DNA from: Clostridia bacterium
Lineage (GTDB): Bacteria; Bacillota; Clostridia; UBA1381
Length of the DNA stretch: 64,000 nucleotides
NCBI GenBank assembly: GCA_017443895.1
Contig: JAFSXU010000064.1
Location: forward strand, 1-64,000
Direction: 5' to 3'
Both the position numbers and the translations under genes were made by a program. A model generated the notes under the pieces. The model searched no databases, was not told where the DNA came from, and saw only the letters and a list, made by a program, of their open reading frames with translations. Below, piece after piece: positions 5,867 through 35,724 of the stretch. Each line of letters begins with the position of its first letter. Within the stretch, counting starts at the first letter, position 1.

Positions 5867-5914
5867 GTGTACAACAAAAGGGACAGGAAACCCAAAGAAA
5901 AGGAGATTAAAACA

Positions 5915-6859
5915 ATGACAGAAAGAACATTAAACCAAATCACAGAAATGAAAAAGCAGACCATAGGCGTTGAGGTTGAAATGAACAACATCAGCAGAGA
6001 AAAAGCAGCGAGAGTTGCAGCCGAGTATTTCGGAACACACCGCTACCAAAACACAGCAAGCCGAAACGGTTACATGACCTGGTCAGCTTGGGACGCCGAC
6101 GGCAGAGAATGGAAATTCCAAAAGGATGTAAGCATTCAAGGCCCCGACGACGAGAAATGCGAACTGGTAACGCCGATACTTTACTACAGCGACATTGAAA
6201 CCTTGCAGGAGCTTGTAAGACGGTTAAGGAAAGCAGGAGCAAAAAGCGACTACTCAAGAGGCTGCGGAGTACACATTCACATCGGCGCAAACGGACACAA
6301 CGCCAAGACCTTAAGAAACCTTGCAAACATCATGGCAAGCCACGAAAGCCTTTTGATAAACGCAATCAACATTGACGAGGGCAGAACGAGAACATACTGC
6401 AAAACGGTAAACAGAAACTTCTTAACAGCCCTCAATCAAACAAAGCCAAGAACCATGTCGGCGCTTGCAGATGTTTGGTACACATCACAGGGAGCAAGCT
6501 ACGGACGGAGCCAGCACTACAACGAAAGCAGATACCATCAGCTAAACTACCATTCAGTATTTACAAAAGGTACGATTGAGTTAAGACTTTTCCAATTCGA
6601 CATACCGAGAAACGGAAAGAAAAACGGCCTCCACGCAGGCGAGCTTAAAGCCTACATACAGCTTTGCTTAGCGCTTTCGCAAATGGCAAAAACAGCAAAG
6701 AGCGCAAGCCCCAAGCCACAGCAAAACGAAAACCCAAAATACGCAATGCGGACTTGGCTCCTACGCCTCGGATTTATCGGAGACGAATTCAAAACCGCAA
6801 GAGAGGTTTTAACAAAAAGACTTGAAGGAGACTGCAGTTTCAGACACGGCAGAGCATAA
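5915..6859 (+). CDS. Amidoligase-family enzyme (GCS/ATP-grasp-like peptide-bond former)
   Basis: 314 residues from ATG 5915, chosen over an upstream GTG (5867) that lies inside the promoter tail; AGGAG is at 5901-5905. It carries the amidoligase_2 hallmarks: GVEVEMN (18-24), an acidic metal-binding strand as in glutamate-cysteine ligase; CGVHIHIG (117-124), a metal/nucleotide histidine motif; and GTIELRLFQFD (219-229). Members are predicted to form amide bonds between an amino acid and a peptide or amine with ATP. Residues 275-314 are the module shared with the protein at 4890. Two gamma-glutamylcyclotransferase-like genes follow, the expected partners for such a ligase. Substrate unknown. 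Confidence 0.87.
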   Translation: MTERTLNQITEMKKQTIGVEVEMNNISREKAARVAAEYFGTHRYQNTASRNGYMTWSAWDADGREWKFQKDVSIQGPDDEKCELVTPILYYSDIETLQELVRRLRKAGAKSDYSRGCGVHIHIGANGHNAKTLRNLANIMASHESLLINAINIDEGRTRTYCKTVNRNFLTALNQTKPRTMSALADVWYTSQGASYGRSQHYNESRYHQLNYHSVFTKGTIELRLFQFDIPRNGKKNGLHAGELKAYIQLCLALSQMAKTAKSASPKPQQNENPKYAMRTWLLRLGFIGDEFKTAREVLTKRLEGDCSFRHGRA

Positions 6860-20418: not shown

Positions 20419-22422
20419 GTGGCTAAAAATATCGGCGCTACACTATCTCTAAAGGACAATGGCTTTTTTACCACTATCAAAAACGCTACCAACTCGTTAA
20501 ACGGTTTTCATAAGCACACAACAAATGCAACGGGCAGCTTAAAGAGAATGGGAACAGAGAGCAGATTATCTGGCGACTCCCTTACTTCCCTTGCCAAAAA
20601 GGCGGTTGGCGTTGTTGCGACTTATGCATCGTTTAGACAGGTTATTTCCATCGGCAAGGAATGTGTGGAGCTTGCGCAAAAAGCCGAAGAAGCAAATGTC
20701 CGTTTAAATACCATTATGGATCAGATTCCGGGTATAACGGACAAGGCAAAGGATAGCGTGGCAGGTCTGTGTAAAGAGTTGTCAAACCAAACTACCATAG
20801 GCGCAACGGCGCAAAAGTCAGGTGCTTCTCAGCTTGCATCGTTTCAGATGTCGGCAGACAGTATCAAAAAGCTACTGCCGGAGCTTAACAATCTCGCAGT
20901 TGCAAGCTACGGTGTAAATGTCACTTCAGACCAAATGATACAGGCGGCGAATATGCTCGGTAAAGCGTATTCGGGTCAAACAGGCGCTCTGTCCCGTGCA
21001 GGTATTGTTATGACCGATGCGCAGAAAAACATGGTAAAGACAGGTAACGATGCGCAAAAATCCGCGGCATTGGTTGAAATACTTCAGCAGAACTTTGGCG
21101 ACCTGGCAAACCAAATGGCAAATACCAATGAAGGTAGGATTATACGGCTTAAAAATGCCATTGCAGGTATCAAGGTAACAGTCGGTCAGGCTCTGCTTCC
21201 TGCAGTTACTGCCATAGTCGGTTATGTTGCGGATAAAATTCCAACCATAATGAACTTGGTTGAAAGAGCAATCGAAAAAGTAAAAGCGCCTATAATTTGG
21301 CTAAAGGACAATGCCCTCCCACCTCTTATTTCAGCCTTTGGTGAAGTTAAGGCTTATGTGGTCAGCGCCTTTGATAATATCAACGGCGCAATCAGTCAGA
21401 ACAGCGATAAAATAAACGGCTTGGGAAATGTAGCTCTAAACATCGGGACATTACTAAAAAAAGCATTTGAACTGTGCAGGCCTACGCTTGATTGGATTAA
21501 GGATACTGCACTTCCCGGACTGGTCGGCATATTCGGCTCAGTACTTAGTGCTATAACAGGTATTGCAGATTTCTTTGTGAGTAATTGGAGCTTGATTGCT
21601 CCGATTATATCAGGCATTGCAGGAGCCGTGCTTGCATATAAGGCTGTTATACTCACAATAAATACAGTAACAAAGATATGGACTGTAGCGCAGATGGTAT
21701 TAAACGCTGTCCTTACGGCAAACCCGATAGGTATTATCATTGTTGCAATCGGCGCACTTATAGCCATTGGTGTGGCGCTATGGATGAATTGGGATAATAT
21801 CTGCAAGTGGTGTATGAGTGCATTCGGTGCGGTCAAAGATTTCTTCGTGTCTGTCGGCAGTGCAATAGGTAATTTCTTTGTAGGGCTTTGGAATGGGATA
21901 AAAGATACAGCGGTTTCTGTATGGACAGGCATTACAGGCTTTTTATCAAGTGCTTGGAATACGGTGTCTATGGGAGCAAAAGCTGTGTTTACAGGAATTG
22001 CAAATACGATAAAGAATATATGGAACGGCATCGTCAACACGATTAAAGGCGCAATCAACAGAATAATAAGTGGCATTAACAGCATGATACGGGGTGCTGT
22101 AGGCGGACTAAACGGTCTGATTAACGGCATCAATAATATAACCGGTGCTGTCGGCATTCCTGCCATTCCCACATTCACCGCTCCGCAAATACCTATGCTT
22201 GCAAACGGTGGTATCCTACGGACAGCAGGTAGTGTTATTGTCGGTGAGAGAGGCGCTGAAATGCTGACTCTTCCAAAGGGCGCGCAGGTTACACCGCTGA
22301 ATAAGACAACAAACACGAACAACAATGTGTTCTATATAACTATAAACGCTGACGGAAAGACTGTTGATACAATCGTAAACGAACTTGTGCCAAAGCTCAA
22401 GCTTGCACTGTCGAATTTGTAA
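20419..22422 (+). CDS. Tail tape measure protein
   Basis: 667 residues from GTG 20419, with GGGAGGTGG upstream. It sets tail length; the length suggests a tail of roughly 100 nm at about 0.15 nm per residue. N-terminal tape measure motif at about 85-260 (LCKELSNQTTIGATAQKSGA, LNNLAVASYGVNVTSDQMIQ, AYSGQTGALSRAGIVMTDAQ). Hydrophobic segments around 370-460 (SLIAPIISGIAGAVLAYKAV, ANPIGIIIVAIGALIAIGVA) probably insert into the host membrane. A glycine/isoleucine-rich helical region and a conserved ILRTAGSVIVGERGAEMLTL end follow. Confidence 0.94.
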   Translation: MAKNIGATLSLKDNGFFTTIKNATNSLNGFHKHTTNATGSLKRMGTESRLSGDSLTSLAKKAVGVVATYASFRQVISIGKECVELAQKAEEANVRLNTIMDQIPGITDKAKDSVAGLCKELSNQTTIGATAQKSGASQLASFQMSADSIKKLLPELNNLAVASYGVNVTSDQMIQAANMLGKAYSGQTGALSRAGIVMTDAQKNMVKTGNDAQKSAALVEILQQNFGDLANQMANTNEGRIIRLKNAIAGIKVTVGQALLPAVTAIVGYVADKIPTIMNLVERAIEKVKAPIIWLKDNALPPLISAFGEVKAYVVSAFDNINGAISQNSDKINGLGNVALNIGTLLKKAFELCRPTLDWIKDTALPGLVGIFGSVLSAITGIADFFVSNWSLIAPIISGIAGAVLAYKAVILTINTVTKIWTVAQMVLNAVLTANPIGIIIVAIGALIAIGVALWMNWDNICKWCMSAFGAVKDFFVSVGSAIGNFFVGLWNGIKDTAVSVWTGITGFLSSAWNTVSMGAKAVFTGIANTIKNIWNGIVNTIKGAINRIISGINSMIRGAVGGLNGLINGINNITGAVGIPAIPTFTAPQIPMLANGGILRTAGSVIVGERGAEMLTLPKGAQVTPLNKTTNTNNNVFYITINADGKTVDTIVNELVPKLKLALSNL

Positions 22423-22440: not shown

Positions 22441-22469
22441 TTGAAAAAGCATAAATTTTAATATATAAT
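22441..22469 (+). promoter_or_regulatory. Promoter of small RNA/peptide locus
   Basis: TTGAAA (22441-22446), 17 bases, TATAAT (22464-22469). It lies just after the tape measure gene and starts transcription near 22476. Confidence 0.75.
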
Positions 22470-22588
22470 GTATGCGTCGGAGAAATCCGATAAGGTAAGA
22501 CTTCTTAACGGTGATTACACCGGCGGTTATGCCCATCCTTTATATTCACAAGGAATTATTCCTGAGTCTATGAAAGGAGGGGATGCTT

Positions 22589-22720
22589 ATGAAAAGTAAG
22601 CATTTTGCTACATATGGCAAAAAAACTGCTTATTGCAGTTTTTGTTATCGTCCTTGTGATGATAATTTTATCCATAAAAGCACAATAGCCGCCTCTGCCA
22701 AGGTCGGCTATTGTAAATAA
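22589..22720 (+). CDS. Short cysteine-containing ORF overlapping the hydrophobic peptide (possible leader)
   Basis: 43 residues with the best ribosome site of the locus (AAAGGAGG at 22573-22580). It starts MKSKHFATYGKKTAYCSFCY and includes four cysteines. It fully covers the 24-codon hydrophobic frame in another phase. It could be a coupling leader like mok before hok, or the real product of the locus. No family recognised. Confidence 0.4.
   Translation: MKSKHFATYGKKTAYCSFCYRPCDDNFIHKSTIAASAKVGYCK
22614..22688 (+). CDS. Tiny hydrophobic peptide, candidate type I toxin
   Basis: 24 residues: a two-lysine start (MAKK) followed by one membrane segment (LLIAVFVIVLVMIILS) and IKAQ. Small single-helix membrane peptides with an antisense RNA are the pattern of type I toxins. 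The frame ends inside a hairpin (22682-22714). A strong promoter on the opposite strand reads back over it. It has no direct ribosome site, so translation may depend on the overlapping frame at 22589. Toxicity is inference. Confidence 0.5.
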   Translation: MAKKLLIAVFVIVLVMIILSIKAQ

Positions 22721-22763
22721 TAGTCTATTCTGGGCATAACCGTTTGAGGTCTTGCCTTTTTCT
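22676..22763 (-). ncRNA. Candidate antisense RNA to the hydrophobic peptide
   Basis: From the minus promoter at 22770-22798 transcription would begin near 22763 and end at the hairpin ACAATAGCCG/CGGCTATTGT (22682-22714), followed on this strand by GCTTTT. The predicted RNA of about 88 bases is complementary to the 3' end of the 24-codon frame and to the downstream repeat arms. Confidence 0.5.
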
Positions 22764-22769
22764 ATATAC

Positions 22770-22798
22770 ATTATACATCTCAATCTTGCATTTGTCAA
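22770..22798 (-). promoter_or_regulatory. Consensus promoter reading back over the small peptide
   Basis: On the minus strand TTGACA (22793-22798), 17 bases, TATAAT (22770-22775): a perfect sigma-A consensus facing against the phage operon. No minus-strand gene explains it. Confidence 0.82.
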
Positions 22799-22835: not shown

Positions 22836-23231
22836 ATGGATATATATTTAAGTGTTAATAACCGTGAACAGGTTATATGTCTGCCTGTTCTTCCTTCTGA
22901 GTTTACAGTTACAAAATCTCGGTCAAATGAGGTTTTTGAAACAGTGGCGCAGGGAGAGCTTAACCTGATAGGCAAAAGTAAACTAAAAAGTATTTCATGG
23001 GATAGTTTCTTCCCCGTAAGGGACTATCCCTTTTTGCGTGACAGAAGTGACACAGCGTTTGGCTACCTTTACACGCTCGATACCTGGTATGAACAAAAGC
23101 TACCTATGCGCCTTATCATCACAGAAACACCAATCAATATGGCTTGTACCATTGAAGATTTTTCATACACTATTAAAAATGACGGCGATATGCACTACAG
23201 TATAACGCTATCGGAGGTGAAGTTAATATAA
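22836..23231 (+). CDS. XkdP-like baseplate protein lacking LysM
   Basis: 131 residues. MDIYLSVNNREQVICLPVLP, FTVTKSRSNEVFETVAQGEL and SISWDSFFPVRDYPF match the N-terminal domain of XkdP/gp53-like baseplate proteins, which usually continue into a C-terminal peptidoglycan-binding LysM. Here the protein ends after the first domain, and a peptidoglycan hydrolase domain is instead found at the start of the next gene. The next gene begins right after its stop. Confidence 0.82.
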   Translation: MDIYLSVNNREQVICLPVLPSEFTVTKSRSNEVFETVAQGELNLIGKSKLKSISWDSFFPVRDYPFLRDRSDTAFGYLYTLDTWYEQKLPMRLIITETPINMACTIEDFSYTIKNDGDMHYSITLSEVKLI

Positions 23232-24746
23232 ATGGGCGCAGTAATTGAAAGTGCGGTTAATTGGGCGGTTGCTATTGCAAACGACAACTCACACGGCTAT
23301 GACCAAAACAGTCGTTGGGGTATTGACTATGACTGTTCCTCACTCGTTATTTCCGCTTTTGAACAGGCAGGCGTAAGGGTTAAAACAGGTGGCGCTACAT
23401 ATACGGGCGATATGAAACCCGTATTTTTAAGGTATGGCTTTTTAGATGTAACAGGACAGATAAACTTATCAAGCGGCGGTGGATTAAAGCGTGGAGATGT
23501 GCTTTTAAATACCACGCACCATACTGCGCTTGTGGTTACTGACGGTGGCGGAACAATAGTCAATGCCTCAATCAATGAAAAAGGCAGAGCCACGGGCGGA
23601 CAAAAAGGCGACCAGACAGGCAGAGAAATATATACAAGAGGATATTATAATTATCCATGGAACTGTGTGCTTAGGTATATGGGCGATGACTCTGTTGCGC
23701 CGTCAAATACTTCAGGCTCGGATAAGGAATACAGCCTGACGGACAAATACGGTACTGGCGGTAATAGTATCCGTGAGGATTTTTCTTTATCGAGAAATGA
23801 ACAGTATAAGCTGCTTGCGGACGGTGTGGATATTTCAGGCTATGTGGGTGGTCTTTCGTGGCAAAACACAATTGATGAACTTGCAACAAAAATGAATTTT
23901 GAAGTTGCAAAATCCGATACCAAGTATGTAAATACATACATTCCTGAGCTTGGGAGTATTATAAACCTATTTACCAATATTGAAATTTTCAGAGGTATAG
24001 TAATTGATGTTGACGATGGCTCTGAAACTGTTAATAAATACACAGTTTGTGATTTTGGTTGGTATTTAAATAAATCCAAAGAAACATACCAGTTTAATAA
24101 TATGTCGGCATACAAGGCTATTAAAAAGGTGTGTGAAGATTTTAATATACCGATTGACACCATTCCCGAACTTAAAACTGAAATAAAACAAATATACATT
24201 GACAAGGCGGTATCTGAGATAATTTCAAATATACTTGAACAGTGTGGCGGCGGATATAACTTTGATATGACTCCACATGGACTTCGCATTTACAAATACG
24301 GTACACTTTATGCCTATCCCGAATTTCGTATAACGCCAAATACGCAGCTTATTTATTCACCTTCCTTGCGCGGTAATGTATCGCATTCGGTGTCTATTGA
24401 GGATATGAAAAACAGCATAAAGGTCATAACCGATGCAGATAATGTATATACCGTTCAAACCGTCCTCAAGGATACCGACAGCATATATAAATTCGGTGTG
24501 TTGCAGGAAGTCGTAAAGATAGACCCTGAAAAGGAAAATGCAAATACTGTGGCAAAAAATAAACTCTCTGAACTGAACAAGCAATCAGAGACTTTTTCCT
24601 TTGAAATGATAGAGGCTGTGGACAGCTACACAAGAGCAGGAATGGTTATGGATATTGACGATGTGCGGTATTTGATTGAAGGAACAAGCCACAGTATAAC
24701 AAACGGTATCCATCATGTGAAAGTTGATTTGCGGAAATTTATATAA
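23232..24746 (+). CDS. Tail lysin fused to baseplate hub (Amidase_5 + XkdQ)
   Basis: 504 residues, two parts. Residues 1-150 are a phage peptidoglycan hydrolase of the Amidase_5/NlpC-P60 type: VNWAVAIANDNSHGYDQ, YDCSSLVI with nucleophile C35, and TTHHTALVVTD with H96-H97. Residues about 185-504 are the XkdQ/gpD-like hub (LLADGVDISGYVGGLSWQNT, then EIFRGIVIDVDDGSE and the RYLIEGTSHSI end). Usually these are separate genes. The fusion delivers the wall-cutting enzyme at the tail tip. Confidence 0.9.
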   Translation: MGAVIESAVNWAVAIANDNSHGYDQNSRWGIDYDCSSLVISAFEQAGVRVKTGGATYTGDMKPVFLRYGFLDVTGQINLSSGGGLKRGDVLLNTTHHTALVVTDGGGTIVNASINEKGRATGGQKGDQTGREIYTRGYYNYPWNCVLRYMGDDSVAPSNTSGSDKEYSLTDKYGTGGNSIREDFSLSRNEQYKLLADGVDISGYVGGLSWQNTIDELATKMNFEVAKSDTKYVNTYIPELGSIINLFTNIEIFRGIVIDVDDGSETVNKYTVCDFGWYLNKSKETYQFNNMSAYKAIKKVCEDFNIPIDTIPELKTEIKQIYIDKAVSEIISNILEQCGGGYNFDMTPHGLRIYKYGTLYAYPEFRITPNTQLIYSPSLRGNVSHSVSIEDMKNSIKVITDADNVYTVQTVLKDTDSIYKFGVLQEVVKIDPEKENANTVAKNKLSELNKQSETFSFEMIEAVDSYTRAGMVMDIDDVRYLIEGTSHSITNGIHHVKVDLRKFI

Positions 24747-32896: not shown

Positions 32897-34153
32897 ATGG
32901 GAAAAACCATAACTAAAATTGAAAAAAGCATACCGGATAAAATAATCCTGAAAAGAGTAGCCGCATATGTCAGAGTATCAAGCGGAAAGGATGCAATGCT
33001 TCATTCACTTTCGGCACAGGTAAGCTATTACAGCGACATGATACAACACCACAAGGGTTGGGTATATGTTGGGGTGTATGCTGATGAAGCCTTTACCGGA
33101 ACAAAGGATACAAGAGATAATTTCCAAAGACTGCTCGCTGATTGCAGGAAGGGTAAGATTGACTGTGTGATCACAAAATCAATATCAAGGTTTGCAAGAA
33201 ATACTGTAACGTTGCTACAAACCGTAAGGGAGCTAAAAAGCCTGGGAATTGATGTGTATTTTGAGGAGCAGAATATACATTCAATGAGTTCTGACGGTGA
33301 GCTTATGCTTACTATACTTGCATCATACGCTCAGGAGGAAAGCAGATCGGTTTCTGAAAACTGCAAGTGGCGGATACGGCACAAATTTGAAGAAGGGATT
33401 GAACATCACTTTACATTGTACGGATATGAAAAGGTTGATGGTGAAATCAAGATAAAAGACGGTGAGGCAGAGGTTGTCCGAGAAATATTTAAATGCTATC
33501 TATCGGGTATGGGTATAACAAAAATTGCGAAAAAGCTTAGACAAGATAATATTCCTTCACCAAAAGGTAGCTCATGGACATTATCGTCTGTCAGAAATGT
33601 TTTAATAAACGAAAAGTATATGGGTGATATGATGTTACAAAAATACTATACCAAAGACCATTTATGTAAAAGGTCAAGATGTAACAACGGTGAACTACCA
33701 AAATACTATGTTGAAGAAACGCATCCCGCCATAATTTCTAAAGAGGACTTTGAAAAAGTGCAGAAAATATTTTCAAGCAAAAATAATAGTATGGGAGCTT
33801 TAAGATATGATTATGATTTTAAAGGCATAGTGTTTTGCGGATGCTGTGGGCGGAATTATGTGCGGAAGAAAAATTATAAAAAATATGTGTGGAAATGCAG
33901 TGCATATAGCAAAAACAGTCGTGAATTTTGCGTCTCAAAACAAATACCCGACAGTATTCTTCATGAACTTTCAGACAGTTTTGAAAAGGAGATTGAAAAG
34001 ATTATAGTATTACCAAACAACGATGTAAAATTTGTTTTTGCGGATAAAAGCGAAACAACAAAGCATTGGGTTCAGCCCTCCCGTGCAGACAGCTGGACTT
34101 ACGAAATGAAAGAAGAAGCGAAAAGAAAGTCATTGGAGCGGGGTGAAATGTAA
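32897..34153 (+). CDS. Large serine recombinase 1
   Basis: 418 residues. The resolvase catalytic domain (20-170) has RVAAYVRVSSGKD with nucleophile S28, KSISRFARNTVTLLQTVREL and QEESRSVSENCKWR. The recombinase domain (180-280) and a zinc-ribbon domain (CGCCGRNYVRKKNY about 313-326) follow. It lacks the long C-terminal coiled coil of the second recombinase. It probably acts with it as a pair, as in other Clostridia elements. The next gene starts one base before its stop. Confidence 0.94.
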   Translation: MGKTITKIEKSIPDKIILKRVAAYVRVSSGKDAMLHSLSAQVSYYSDMIQHHKGWVYVGVYADEAFTGTKDTRDNFQRLLADCRKGKIDCVITKSISRFARNTVTLLQTVRELKSLGIDVYFEEQNIHSMSSDGELMLTILASYAQEESRSVSENCKWRIRHKFEEGIEHHFTLYGYEKVDGEIKIKDGEAEVVREIFKCYLSGMGITKIAKKLRQDNIPSPKGSSWTLSSVRNVLINEKYMGDMMLQKYYTKDHLCKRSRCNNGELPKYYVEETHPAIISKEDFEKVQKIFSSKNNSMGALRYDYDFKGIVFCGCCGRNYVRKKNYKKYVWKCSAYSKNSREFCVSKQIPDSILHELSDSFEKEIEKIIVLPNNDVKFVFADKSETTKHWVQPSRADSWTYEMKEEAKRKSLERGEM

Positions 34154-35724
34154 TGCCAAAGGTGAGAAAAATTGATGCAACCGTAAACCCTATTACACAT
34201 ATGCCGTCATTTGAAAACATAAAGCGCAGGGTTGCGGGGTATGCCAGGGTATCGACAGATAGCGATGAACAGTTTACAAGCTATGAGGCACAGGTAGACT
34301 ATTATACTAATTACATAAAATCGAGAGCGGATTGGGAATTTGTCGAGGTCTATACTGACGAGGGGATTTCGGCAACAAACACAAAACATAGAGCCGGATT
34401 TAACCGAATGATAGAAGATGCTCTTGCCGGTAAGATTGACCTCATAGTTACAAAGTCGGTAAGCCGTTTTGCAAGGAATACGGTTGACAGTCTTGTAACG
34501 GTGAGAAAGCTCAAGGACAAGGGGGTAGAGGTATATTTTGAAAAGGAAAACATATATACGCTCGACTCCAAAGGTGAGCTGCTTATAACAATCATGTCAT
34601 CGCTTGCACAAGAGGAGAGCCGGAGTATATCGGAAAATGTAACATGGGGACAAAGGAAAAGATTTGCAGACGGTAAGGTCAGTATGCCGTATAAATGTTT
34701 CTTGGGCTATAGAAGAGGGGAGGACGGTACTCCGGAAATTGTTCCCGAGGAAGCTGAAATTGTGCGAAGGATTTACAGTATGTACCTGCAAGGTAAGGGA
34801 GTAGGTTCTATTGCAAATCAACTTACAAAAGAAAATATTCTGACTCCGGCCGGAAAGAGCAAGTGGGCCACATCAACGGTGCAGAGTATTCTGACAAATG
34901 AGAAATATAAAGGGGATGCACTTTTACAAAAGACATTTACGGTGGATTTTTTGCAGAAGAAGGTTAAGAAAAATGAGGGTGAGGTCCCTAAGTATTATGT
35001 CGAACAAAGCCATGAGGCTATAATTGATCCGAGAGAATTTGAACTGGTGCAGCAGGAGATTGTGCGGCGGACGGCCATAGGTAAGCGTTACAGCGGGCAA
35101 AGCATTTTATCGGCAAGAATAATATGCGGAGACTGCGGCGGGTTTTACGGTCAGAAGGTCTGGCATTCCACGAGTAAGTATAAAAGAACGGTATGGCAGT
35201 GTAATGAGAAATTCAGAGGAAAAGAGTGCAGTACACCGCATTATGATGAGGAGGAAATCAAGGAACGCTTTTTAAAAGCATATAACATTCTGGTAAATGA
35301 TAAGGAAGCATTATTGGAGGATTGCAGACTAATACAAAAAGTTCTTTCCGATACGGCGGAGGTTGACAAAAAGATAACTGAGCTTTTCCGTGAATTGGAA
35401 ATTGTGTCAGAGCTGATGCAAAAGAGTATAGATGAAAATGCTTACATAGCACAAAGTCAGGCGGATTATAACAAAAGGTACGCCGCCCATGAAGCCAAAT
35501 ATGATGAGCTTGTTGAAAAGATACGAAGCCTGAGAGATAAGAAAGAAAAACGAAATAGGCAATATAAAGCCATAGAAGCGTTTATGTTCGAAATCATGGA
35601 GCGCGAAGAACCGCTGAATATATTTGACGCGAAGCTCTGGATCGCGACAATAGATACCGTAACGGTGTACCGTGACGGGAGAATGGTATTCAAATTTAAA
35701 ACAGGAGCGGAAATTGAAGCATAA
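34153..35724 (+). CDS. Large serine recombinase 2 (probable integrase)
   Basis: 523 residues. The catalytic domain has RVAGYARVSTDSDEQ with nucleophile S34 and SVSRFARNTVDSLVTVRKLK. The recombinase domain (185-290) is followed by a zinc ribbon with CGDCGGFYGQKVW, and a long coiled coil (about 390-470) with a small C-terminal beta domain (IATIDTVTVYRDGRMVFKFK). This is the complete layout of phage serine integrases. Its start overlaps the stop of recombinase 1, so both are made from one message. It marks the right end of the element. Confidence 0.95.
   Translation: MPKVRKIDATVNPITHMPSFENIKRRVAGYARVSTDSDEQFTSYEAQVDYYTNYIKSRADWEFVEVYTDEGISATNTKHRAGFNRMIEDALAGKIDLIVTKSVSRFARNTVDSLVTVRKLKDKGVEVYFEKENIYTLDSKGELLITIMSSLAQEESRSISENVTWGQRKRFADGKVSMPYKCFLGYRRGEDGTPEIVPEEAEIVRRIYSMYLQGKGVGSIANQLTKENILTPAGKSKWATSTVQSILTNEKYKGDALLQKTFTVDFLQKKVKKNEGEVPKYYVEQSHEAIIDPREFELVQQEIVRRTAIGKRYSGQSILSARIICGDCGGFYGQKVWHSTSKYKRTVWQCNEKFRGKECSTPHYDEEEIKERFLKAYNILVNDKEALLEDCRLIQKVLSDTAEVDKKITELFRELEIVSELMQKSIDENAYIAQSQADYNKRYAAHEAKYDELVEKIRSLRDKKEKRNRQYKAIEAFMFEIMEREEPLNIFDAKLWIATIDTVTVYRDGRMVFKFKTGAEIEA

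Follow-up and report, generated by a model that had tools for sequence, protein, structure and literature searches.

A candidate family of type I toxin-antitoxin modules with predicted end-joined toxin mRNAs, carried here by a clostridial temperate myophage

The stretch of DNA analyzed here (the window, 64,000 nucleotides [nt] from contig JAFSXU010000064.1 of the Clostridia bacterium assembly GCA_017443895.1) carries a temperate myophage, with genes for terminase, portal, capsid, sheath, tape measure, amidase, and two adjacent serine integrases. Between the tape-measure gene and the next tail-region gene lies a candidate module of 320 nt in which two promoters face each other across a small frame for a hydrophobic peptide (Table 1). 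A sequence-only reading of the window had proposed a type I toxin-antisense RNA locus at this place, with a forward promoter, a 24-residue hydrophobic peptide, and a perfect promoter facing backwards. All three are present where it put them, and a type I locus between the tape-measure and downstream tail genes remains the best reading. When both strands are scanned, the reverse promoter is the sole site in the whole 64 kb that matches TTGACA/TATAAT at all 12 positions.

Because the module occurs in dozens of genomes with its parts in the same order, the arrangement is not a product of chance. Taken as a 360-nt element, it is present in 11 apparently intact copies within its own genome, and 45 of the 150 related genomes examined contain matches. 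An exact pattern taken from the 3' arms of the predicted toxin mRNA recovered 90 stretches from 84,980 species genomes, nearly all from uncultured Clostridia, Oscillospiraceae, or Ruminococcus of the ruminant, rabbit, and mouse gut; the pattern was also present in five viral contigs. Of the 60 genomes sampled from the order, 13 had the pattern, compared with 0 of 397 others from across the phylum. Matches in Planctomycetota (L102) and Thermoplasmata (L103) were rejected as chance hits in GC-rich DNA, and the sole copy recovered from a named isolate, Lachnospiraceae MD329 (L126), has no 5' half. From these searches we collected 86 modules with both ends, 84 of them distinct. The reverse promoter matches the consensus at 12 of 12 positions in 78 of the 84 and at 11 in five more, and the forward promoter matches at 10 or more positions in 73, whereas equally long random segments of the window mostly score 7 to 9.

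Table 1. Position of the module and its predicted features in the window
Feature	Position	Strand	Remarks
Candidate module	between 20419-22422 and 22836-23231		flanked by tape-measure gene (PHROG tape measure) and next tail-region gene
Toxin mRNA promoter, TTGAAA-17-TATAAT	22441-22469	+	transcription start inferred near 22476
mRNA 5' hairpin, GUCGGAGAAAUCCGAU	22476-22491	+	conserved with compensatory changes
5' arm a, AAGGUAAGACUUC	22492-22504	+	partner, 22746-22758
Small hairpin, CGGUG..CACCG	22509-22522	+	between arms a and b
5' arm b, GCGGUUAUGCCCA	22523-22535	+	partner, 22731-22743
Anti-Shine-Dalgarno, UCCUUU	22536-22541	+	pairs with AAAGGA of ribosome site
Shine-Dalgarno, AAGGAGGGG	22574-22582	+	strong; serves overlapping leader frame
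Leader start-codon hairpin, AUGCUUAUGAAAAGUAAGCAU	22583-22603	+	covarying helix 7; 100% paired; AU to GC in 5/18
Overlapping leader frame, 43 codons	22589-22720	+	toxin lies in its +1 frame
Hydrophobic 24-residue peptide, presumed toxin, MAKKLLIAVFVIVLVMIILSIKAQ	22614-22688	+	hydrophobic peptide in nearly all modules
3' arm c, UGGGCAUAACCGU	22731-22743	+	complement of antisense RNA 5' part
3' arm d, GAGGUCUUGCCUU	22746-22758	+	with U run 22757-22761, probable mRNA terminator
Antisense promoter, TTGACA-17-TATAAT	22798-22770	-	12/12 consensus match
Predicted antisense RNA (antitoxin), ~88 nt	22763 to about 22676	-	promoter, 5' hairpin, terminator hairpin
Antisense terminator hairpin	22683-22713	-	strong; followed by GCUUUU overlapping last toxin codons; covarying helix 10

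A very hydrophobic peptide of 20 to 30 residues, varied in sequence, is encoded in all but about 4 of the 86 modules, the exceptions including modules cut by contig ends. Subfamily A, to which the window's copy belongs (MAKKLLIA...SIKAQ), is nested, with an overlapping leader frame. The peptide starts directly at the ribosome site in subfamily B (MxKYILRIIFL..LTKKVR) and subfamily C (MDNEYIISFMIILLLLVISIKK and MEYVYIMIYIITLIVLIITIKK), and rarer subfamilies exist, e.g., MTVESMILVLIVILFTLYVIKK. Ratios of nonsynonymous to synonymous changes (pN/pS) are 0.24 to 0.50 for the peptide frame across the family and 1.3 to 1.45 for the leader frame of subfamily A; in every length class of subfamilies B and C, the lowest value is that of the peptide frame. 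Judged by these ratios, the peptide frame is under amino-acid constraint, unlike the leader frame.

The sequence-only reading had known of no described family with this peptide, and the libraries name none. Rfam gave no match over the window at the gathering threshold; RatA (RF01776) was rejected at 20.7 bits against a gathering score of 49 (E = 4), and rli32 was likewise far below threshold. Pfam, NCBIfam, PHROGs, and PADLOC, searched with one and with 39 peptides, returned nothing credible, and distant blastn against phage and plasmid record collections found no match.

The ten apparently intact paralogues elsewhere in the genome lie at C13 (L229), C68 (L233), C64 (L227 and L228), C33 (L231), C4 (L049), C46 (L050 and L051), C60 (L048), and C76 (L052), each with its own hydrophobic peptide; in two further copies, C28 (L230) and C53 (L232), the 5' half has been replaced. 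In the loci L058, L060, L042, L161, and L028, at least two modules stand in a close row, some of them apparently sharing parts through recombination.

The predicted mRNA (22476-22761, ~286 nt) folds at -118.2 kcal/mol, compared with -66.0 +/- 4.7 for shuffled sequences (z = -11.2). Nested arms able to join the transcript ends had been proposed from the sequence, and the fold bears this out: 26 pairs (13 + 13) join the two ends, the Shine-Dalgarno sequence lies in a helix, and the start codons lie in hairpins. End joining by 16 to 34 base pairs recurred in all 63 transcripts folded (median z, -7.7). Cognate arms paired at -36.9 kcal/mol and swapped arms at -34.0, with none of 10,000 permutations as low, a contrast inflated by relatedness. 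In each of two alignments, RNAalifold arrived unprompted at pairing between the 5' and the 3' arms. Locks on the ribosome site analogous to that in the window are found in other subfamilies (CCACUCUCC/GGGGGUGG and AUCAUCUCC/GGGGGUGAU).

In the nested class, two-sided changes occur in 18 pairs, compared with 6.9 in shuffled alignments (0 of 500 as high). These pairs are distributed among the closing helices, the antisense terminator, the start hairpin of the leader, and the hairpin that precedes the ribosome site. The direct class has pairing in 99.4% of cells, and the variants nearly all keep the pair, mostly by exchange of Watson-Crick and G-U. Furthermore, in a subfamily of the same genome one base has been lost from both arms in concert (GGUUAGCC with GGCUAACC), and in the phage copy L210 the outer arm pair is of unrelated sequence (GGUUGAUUGAC with GUCAAUCAACC). 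Such concerted shortening or replacement of arms would be hard to explain if the arms did not pair. The own-genome copies L048, L049, and L050 (C60, C4, and C46) carry an extra outermost arm pair (5' GGUUGGUUGU, 3' ACAACCAGCC), and their toxin start is TTG.

Several observations weigh against reading the module as a type I system. The end-joining columns of the direct class barely vary, with two-sided changes in 2 pairs. As the antisense RNA is almost identical to the 5' arms, arm conservation alone cannot separate folding of the mRNA from pairing with the antisense RNA. In equilibrium folds, the ribosome site is freed by neither 3' nor 5' trimming. Finally, in the nested class the pN/pS of the toxin frame (0.50) is about that of the third frame (0.52); that third frame is full of stops and cannot code, so that pN/pS alone is weak evidence there.

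The leader frame of the nested class could begin at 22583 or at a second ATG at 22589; we placed its start at the latter, which is conserved in relatives, because the first ATG has been lost in some of them. The frame and its start do not vary among 18 nested members, and direct members have no such frame. In subfamily A, the toxin start lies 25 to 28 nt inside the leader without a ribosome site of its own, so the simplest reading is that translation of the toxin would be coupled to that of the leader, as in mok/hok (PMC4147584). The 43-residue frame noted in the sequence-only reading does overlap the toxin and does have a strong ribosome site, but it is confined to one subfamily and is not conserved as a protein; on this pattern, it is more probable that the leader serves translation than that it encodes a second product. 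A programmed +1 frameshift from leader to toxin at the A run GGCAAAAAAACTG was considered and rejected, the run not being conserved among nested members. Nor did we count the leader frame's length in support of the reading: hydrophobic codons of the toxin frame carry T in second position, which puts T last in the leader codon, so that the toxin frame itself prevents leader stops.

The predicted antisense RNA covers the 3' end of the mRNA and the last toxin codons, and its promoter and terminator are conserved across the family. It begins with a hairpin, and the sequence of its 5' part almost repeats that of the 5' arms of the mRNA. The hairpin that the sequence-only reading had seen beside the peptide is present, near 22683-22713, and is best read as the terminator of this RNA.

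Taken together, the conserved parts and their order, the conserved peptide, the covarying end joining, and the insertion at a tail-gene junction described below lead us to regard the module as very probably a new family of type I toxin-antitoxin systems, carried here as a phage accessory cassette. We infer its transcription, toxicity, duplex decay, coupling, and trigger from these features, and the toxicity of the peptide and the action of the antisense RNA are predictions. The forward promoter would produce an mRNA of ~286 nt in a closed, largely inert fold, with the Shine-Dalgarno sequence paired to the upstream anti-Shine-Dalgarno, the start codons in hairpins, and the ends held by two helices of ~13 pairs. 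The stronger reverse promoter would produce the ~88-nt antisense RNA, which would start opposite the 3' terminus of the mRNA and reach back as far as the last codons of the toxin. The 5' hairpin of this RNA could displace the mRNA 5' arms from the 3' arms, and pairing could then spread to a full duplex that would cover the terminator and the last toxin codons and be destroyed by RNase III. In txpA/RatA, RNase III-mediated decay is the main effect of the antisense RNA (PMC4147584). If antisense RNA were no longer supplied, because the prophage was lost, host transcription collapsed, or transcription of the tail operon read through, escaping mRNA would yield a membrane-active peptide and growth would stop. 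In subfamily A, ribosomes would load at the strong leader site and be brought by coupling to the toxin start, 25 to 28 nt farther downstream; the remaining subfamilies would have translation start directly at the peptide.

As the antisense 5' part resembles the mRNA 5' arms, leader and antitoxin would compete for the same 3' arms. We put forward only tentatively, and with some doubt, that the 5' leader is a built-in copy of the antitoxin acting by strand exchange and that the antisense RNAs of paralogues cross-regulate one another as a network, a possibility raised by the ~24 nt of arms that are nearly identical among many paralogues. If so, with a dozen scattered and phage-borne copies in one genome, a resident copy could silence, or be triggered by, the copy of an incoming phage.

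In about twenty related phage loci, the distance from the tape-measure stop to the next gene is 10 to 20 nt, whereas in the window it is 413 nt. The sequence-only reading had suggested looking for the module in other phages, and members turned up at the same tail-gene junction in four further loci, L169 (391 nt), L172 (398 nt), L210 (493 nt), and L224; L223, from the same genome as L210, has a weak match there. At each of the five phage sites, the module's sense strand runs in the same direction as the tail operon. As the junction is empty in relatives and holds modules of different subfamilies, comparison of these loci identifies the element as an accessory cassette ("moron") at a favoured site. 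Copies at other places sit between unrelated housekeeping or mobile-element genes, and a tally of neighbouring genes gave no common partner. Elsewhere in the window, an amidoligase-like gene (5867-6859, phrog_2443) lies upstream of the terminase gene; positions 23232-24746 encode a 504-residue tail protein, the N-terminal part of which weakly resembles an endolysin family and the C-terminal part a tail protein family; and the serine integrases (32897-35724, PHROG integrase / DNA invertase) lie at the right end of the structural genes.

Other explanations have to be weighed against this one. Nested 5' and 3' arms, an overlapping leader, and a locked ribosome site would also suit a hok-like two-step killer, for which hok and aapA are precedents (PMC4147584, PMC6733600): trimming of arms c and d would be followed by refolding and by translation of leader and toxin, and the antisense RNA would act only on the processed form. 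We consider this unlikely. Over 57 modules, the mean probability that the Shine-Dalgarno sequence is unpaired in equilibrium folds is 0.17 at full length and falls to 0.10 without the 3' arms; the site is closed either way, which argues against release by 3' trimming of the hok or aapA type (PMC6733600). Moreover, the predicted antisense RNA is directed at the 3' end, so that trimming would take its target away; Sok, by contrast, acts on the leader region. The likeness to hok/sok claimed in the sequence-only reading therefore holds for the end-joining arms but not for the control of the ribosome site, which is held by an upstream anti-Shine-Dalgarno, and a 3'-trimming trigger is unsupported.

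Toxicity is not provable from sequence, and the peptide might instead be a benign, regulated membrane peptide such as a lysis timer, a superinfection-exclusion peptide, or a regulator of a membrane enzyme. Copies adjoin many unrelated host genes, and the orientation along the tail operon at the five phage sites would fit late expression. However, a perfect-consensus antisense promoter, a locked ribosome site, and tiny hydrophobic open reading frames in many copies are the usual signature of type I toxins (PMC6563280, PMC4147584), and we judge a benign role to be distinctly improbable. The many dispersed copies per genome, intergenic and sometimes tandem, with ends conserved in concert, could also suggest that the family is primarily a selfish or mobile RNA element, using its conserved ends to propagate and making the peptide as a by-product. 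The constraint on the peptide frame and the two inward-facing promoters, which are among the best conserved parts, speak against such an element, as does the fact that no transposase or repeated target duplication was seen, and it strikes us as very improbable indeed.

If the module is a type I system, it adds a large family to a major uncultured part of the herbivore gut microbiota, in a class from which a review reported validated type I systems only from Clostridioides difficile (PMC6563280). It would also mean that toxin mRNAs with joined ends occur in Clostridia, one branch having in addition a hok/mok-like overlapping leader, and that these features arose there apparently by convergence. 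With direct and nested subfamilies of a single locus side by side, one could ask how and why an overlapping leader evolves, and different subfamilies at one tail-gene junction mark a moron site at which prophage stabilization or exclusion by type I systems becomes testable.

Among known systems, TxpA/RatA and BsrG/SR4 of Bacillus subtilis prophages share convergent transcripts overlapping at the 3' end, a small membrane peptide, a prophage site, and an antisense RNA that promotes decay by RNase III (PMC4147584). The convergent, 3'-overlapping layout is predicted here from promoters and terminators; no sequence similarity was found, and the toxins of those systems are larger (TxpA, 59 residues). 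To our knowledge, no 5' antitoxin copy joining the mRNA ends has been described for either. Fst of par pAD1 (RNA I/RNA II) is likewise Gram-positive, with convergent RNAs, a toxin ribosome site locked by 5' structure, and repeats at both ends of the locus (PMC7472228). However, the PxxxG motif of Fst/Ldr toxins (~33 residues, with a charged C-terminal tail) is found in 0 of 39 aligned peptides, and Fst/Ldr loci have a shared bidirectional terminator and direct repeats (DRa/DRb) where the present modules are predicted to have separate terminators and inverted arms that pair within the mRNA. As in hok/mok/sok, the 5' and 3' ends of the predicted mRNA pair and close it, and one subfamily has a leader frame that overlaps the toxin and has a good ribosome site (PMC4147584). 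The module differs in that the predicted antisense RNA lies on the 3' end (22676-22763) rather than on the leader (mok), the peptide has 20 to 30 residues and no credible Pfam or NCBIfam match to Hok, the hosts are Clostridia rather than enterobacteria, and 3' trimming is not predicted from equilibrium folds to open the ribosome site. aapA/IsoA of Helicobacter also pairs the two ends of its mRNA, closes the ribosome site with hairpins, and is present in several chromosomal copies (PMC6733600); it is set apart by description, with an anti-Shine-Dalgarno from the 3' end rather than the 5' end, and by its different bacterial hosts. The C. difficile prophage modules (CD0977.1-RCd11 and others) are convergent, overlapping pairs in many copies in clostridial prophages, but they have toxins of 34 to 59 residues, SigB promoters, and a CRISPR neighbourhood (PMC6563280), and are set apart by description and by the family libraries. 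By the features compared, the module somewhat resembles hok/sok, Fst, and txpA/RatA but belongs to none of them; its predicted layout is distinctive in combining a leader that mimics the antitoxin with separate direct and overlapping-leader branches.
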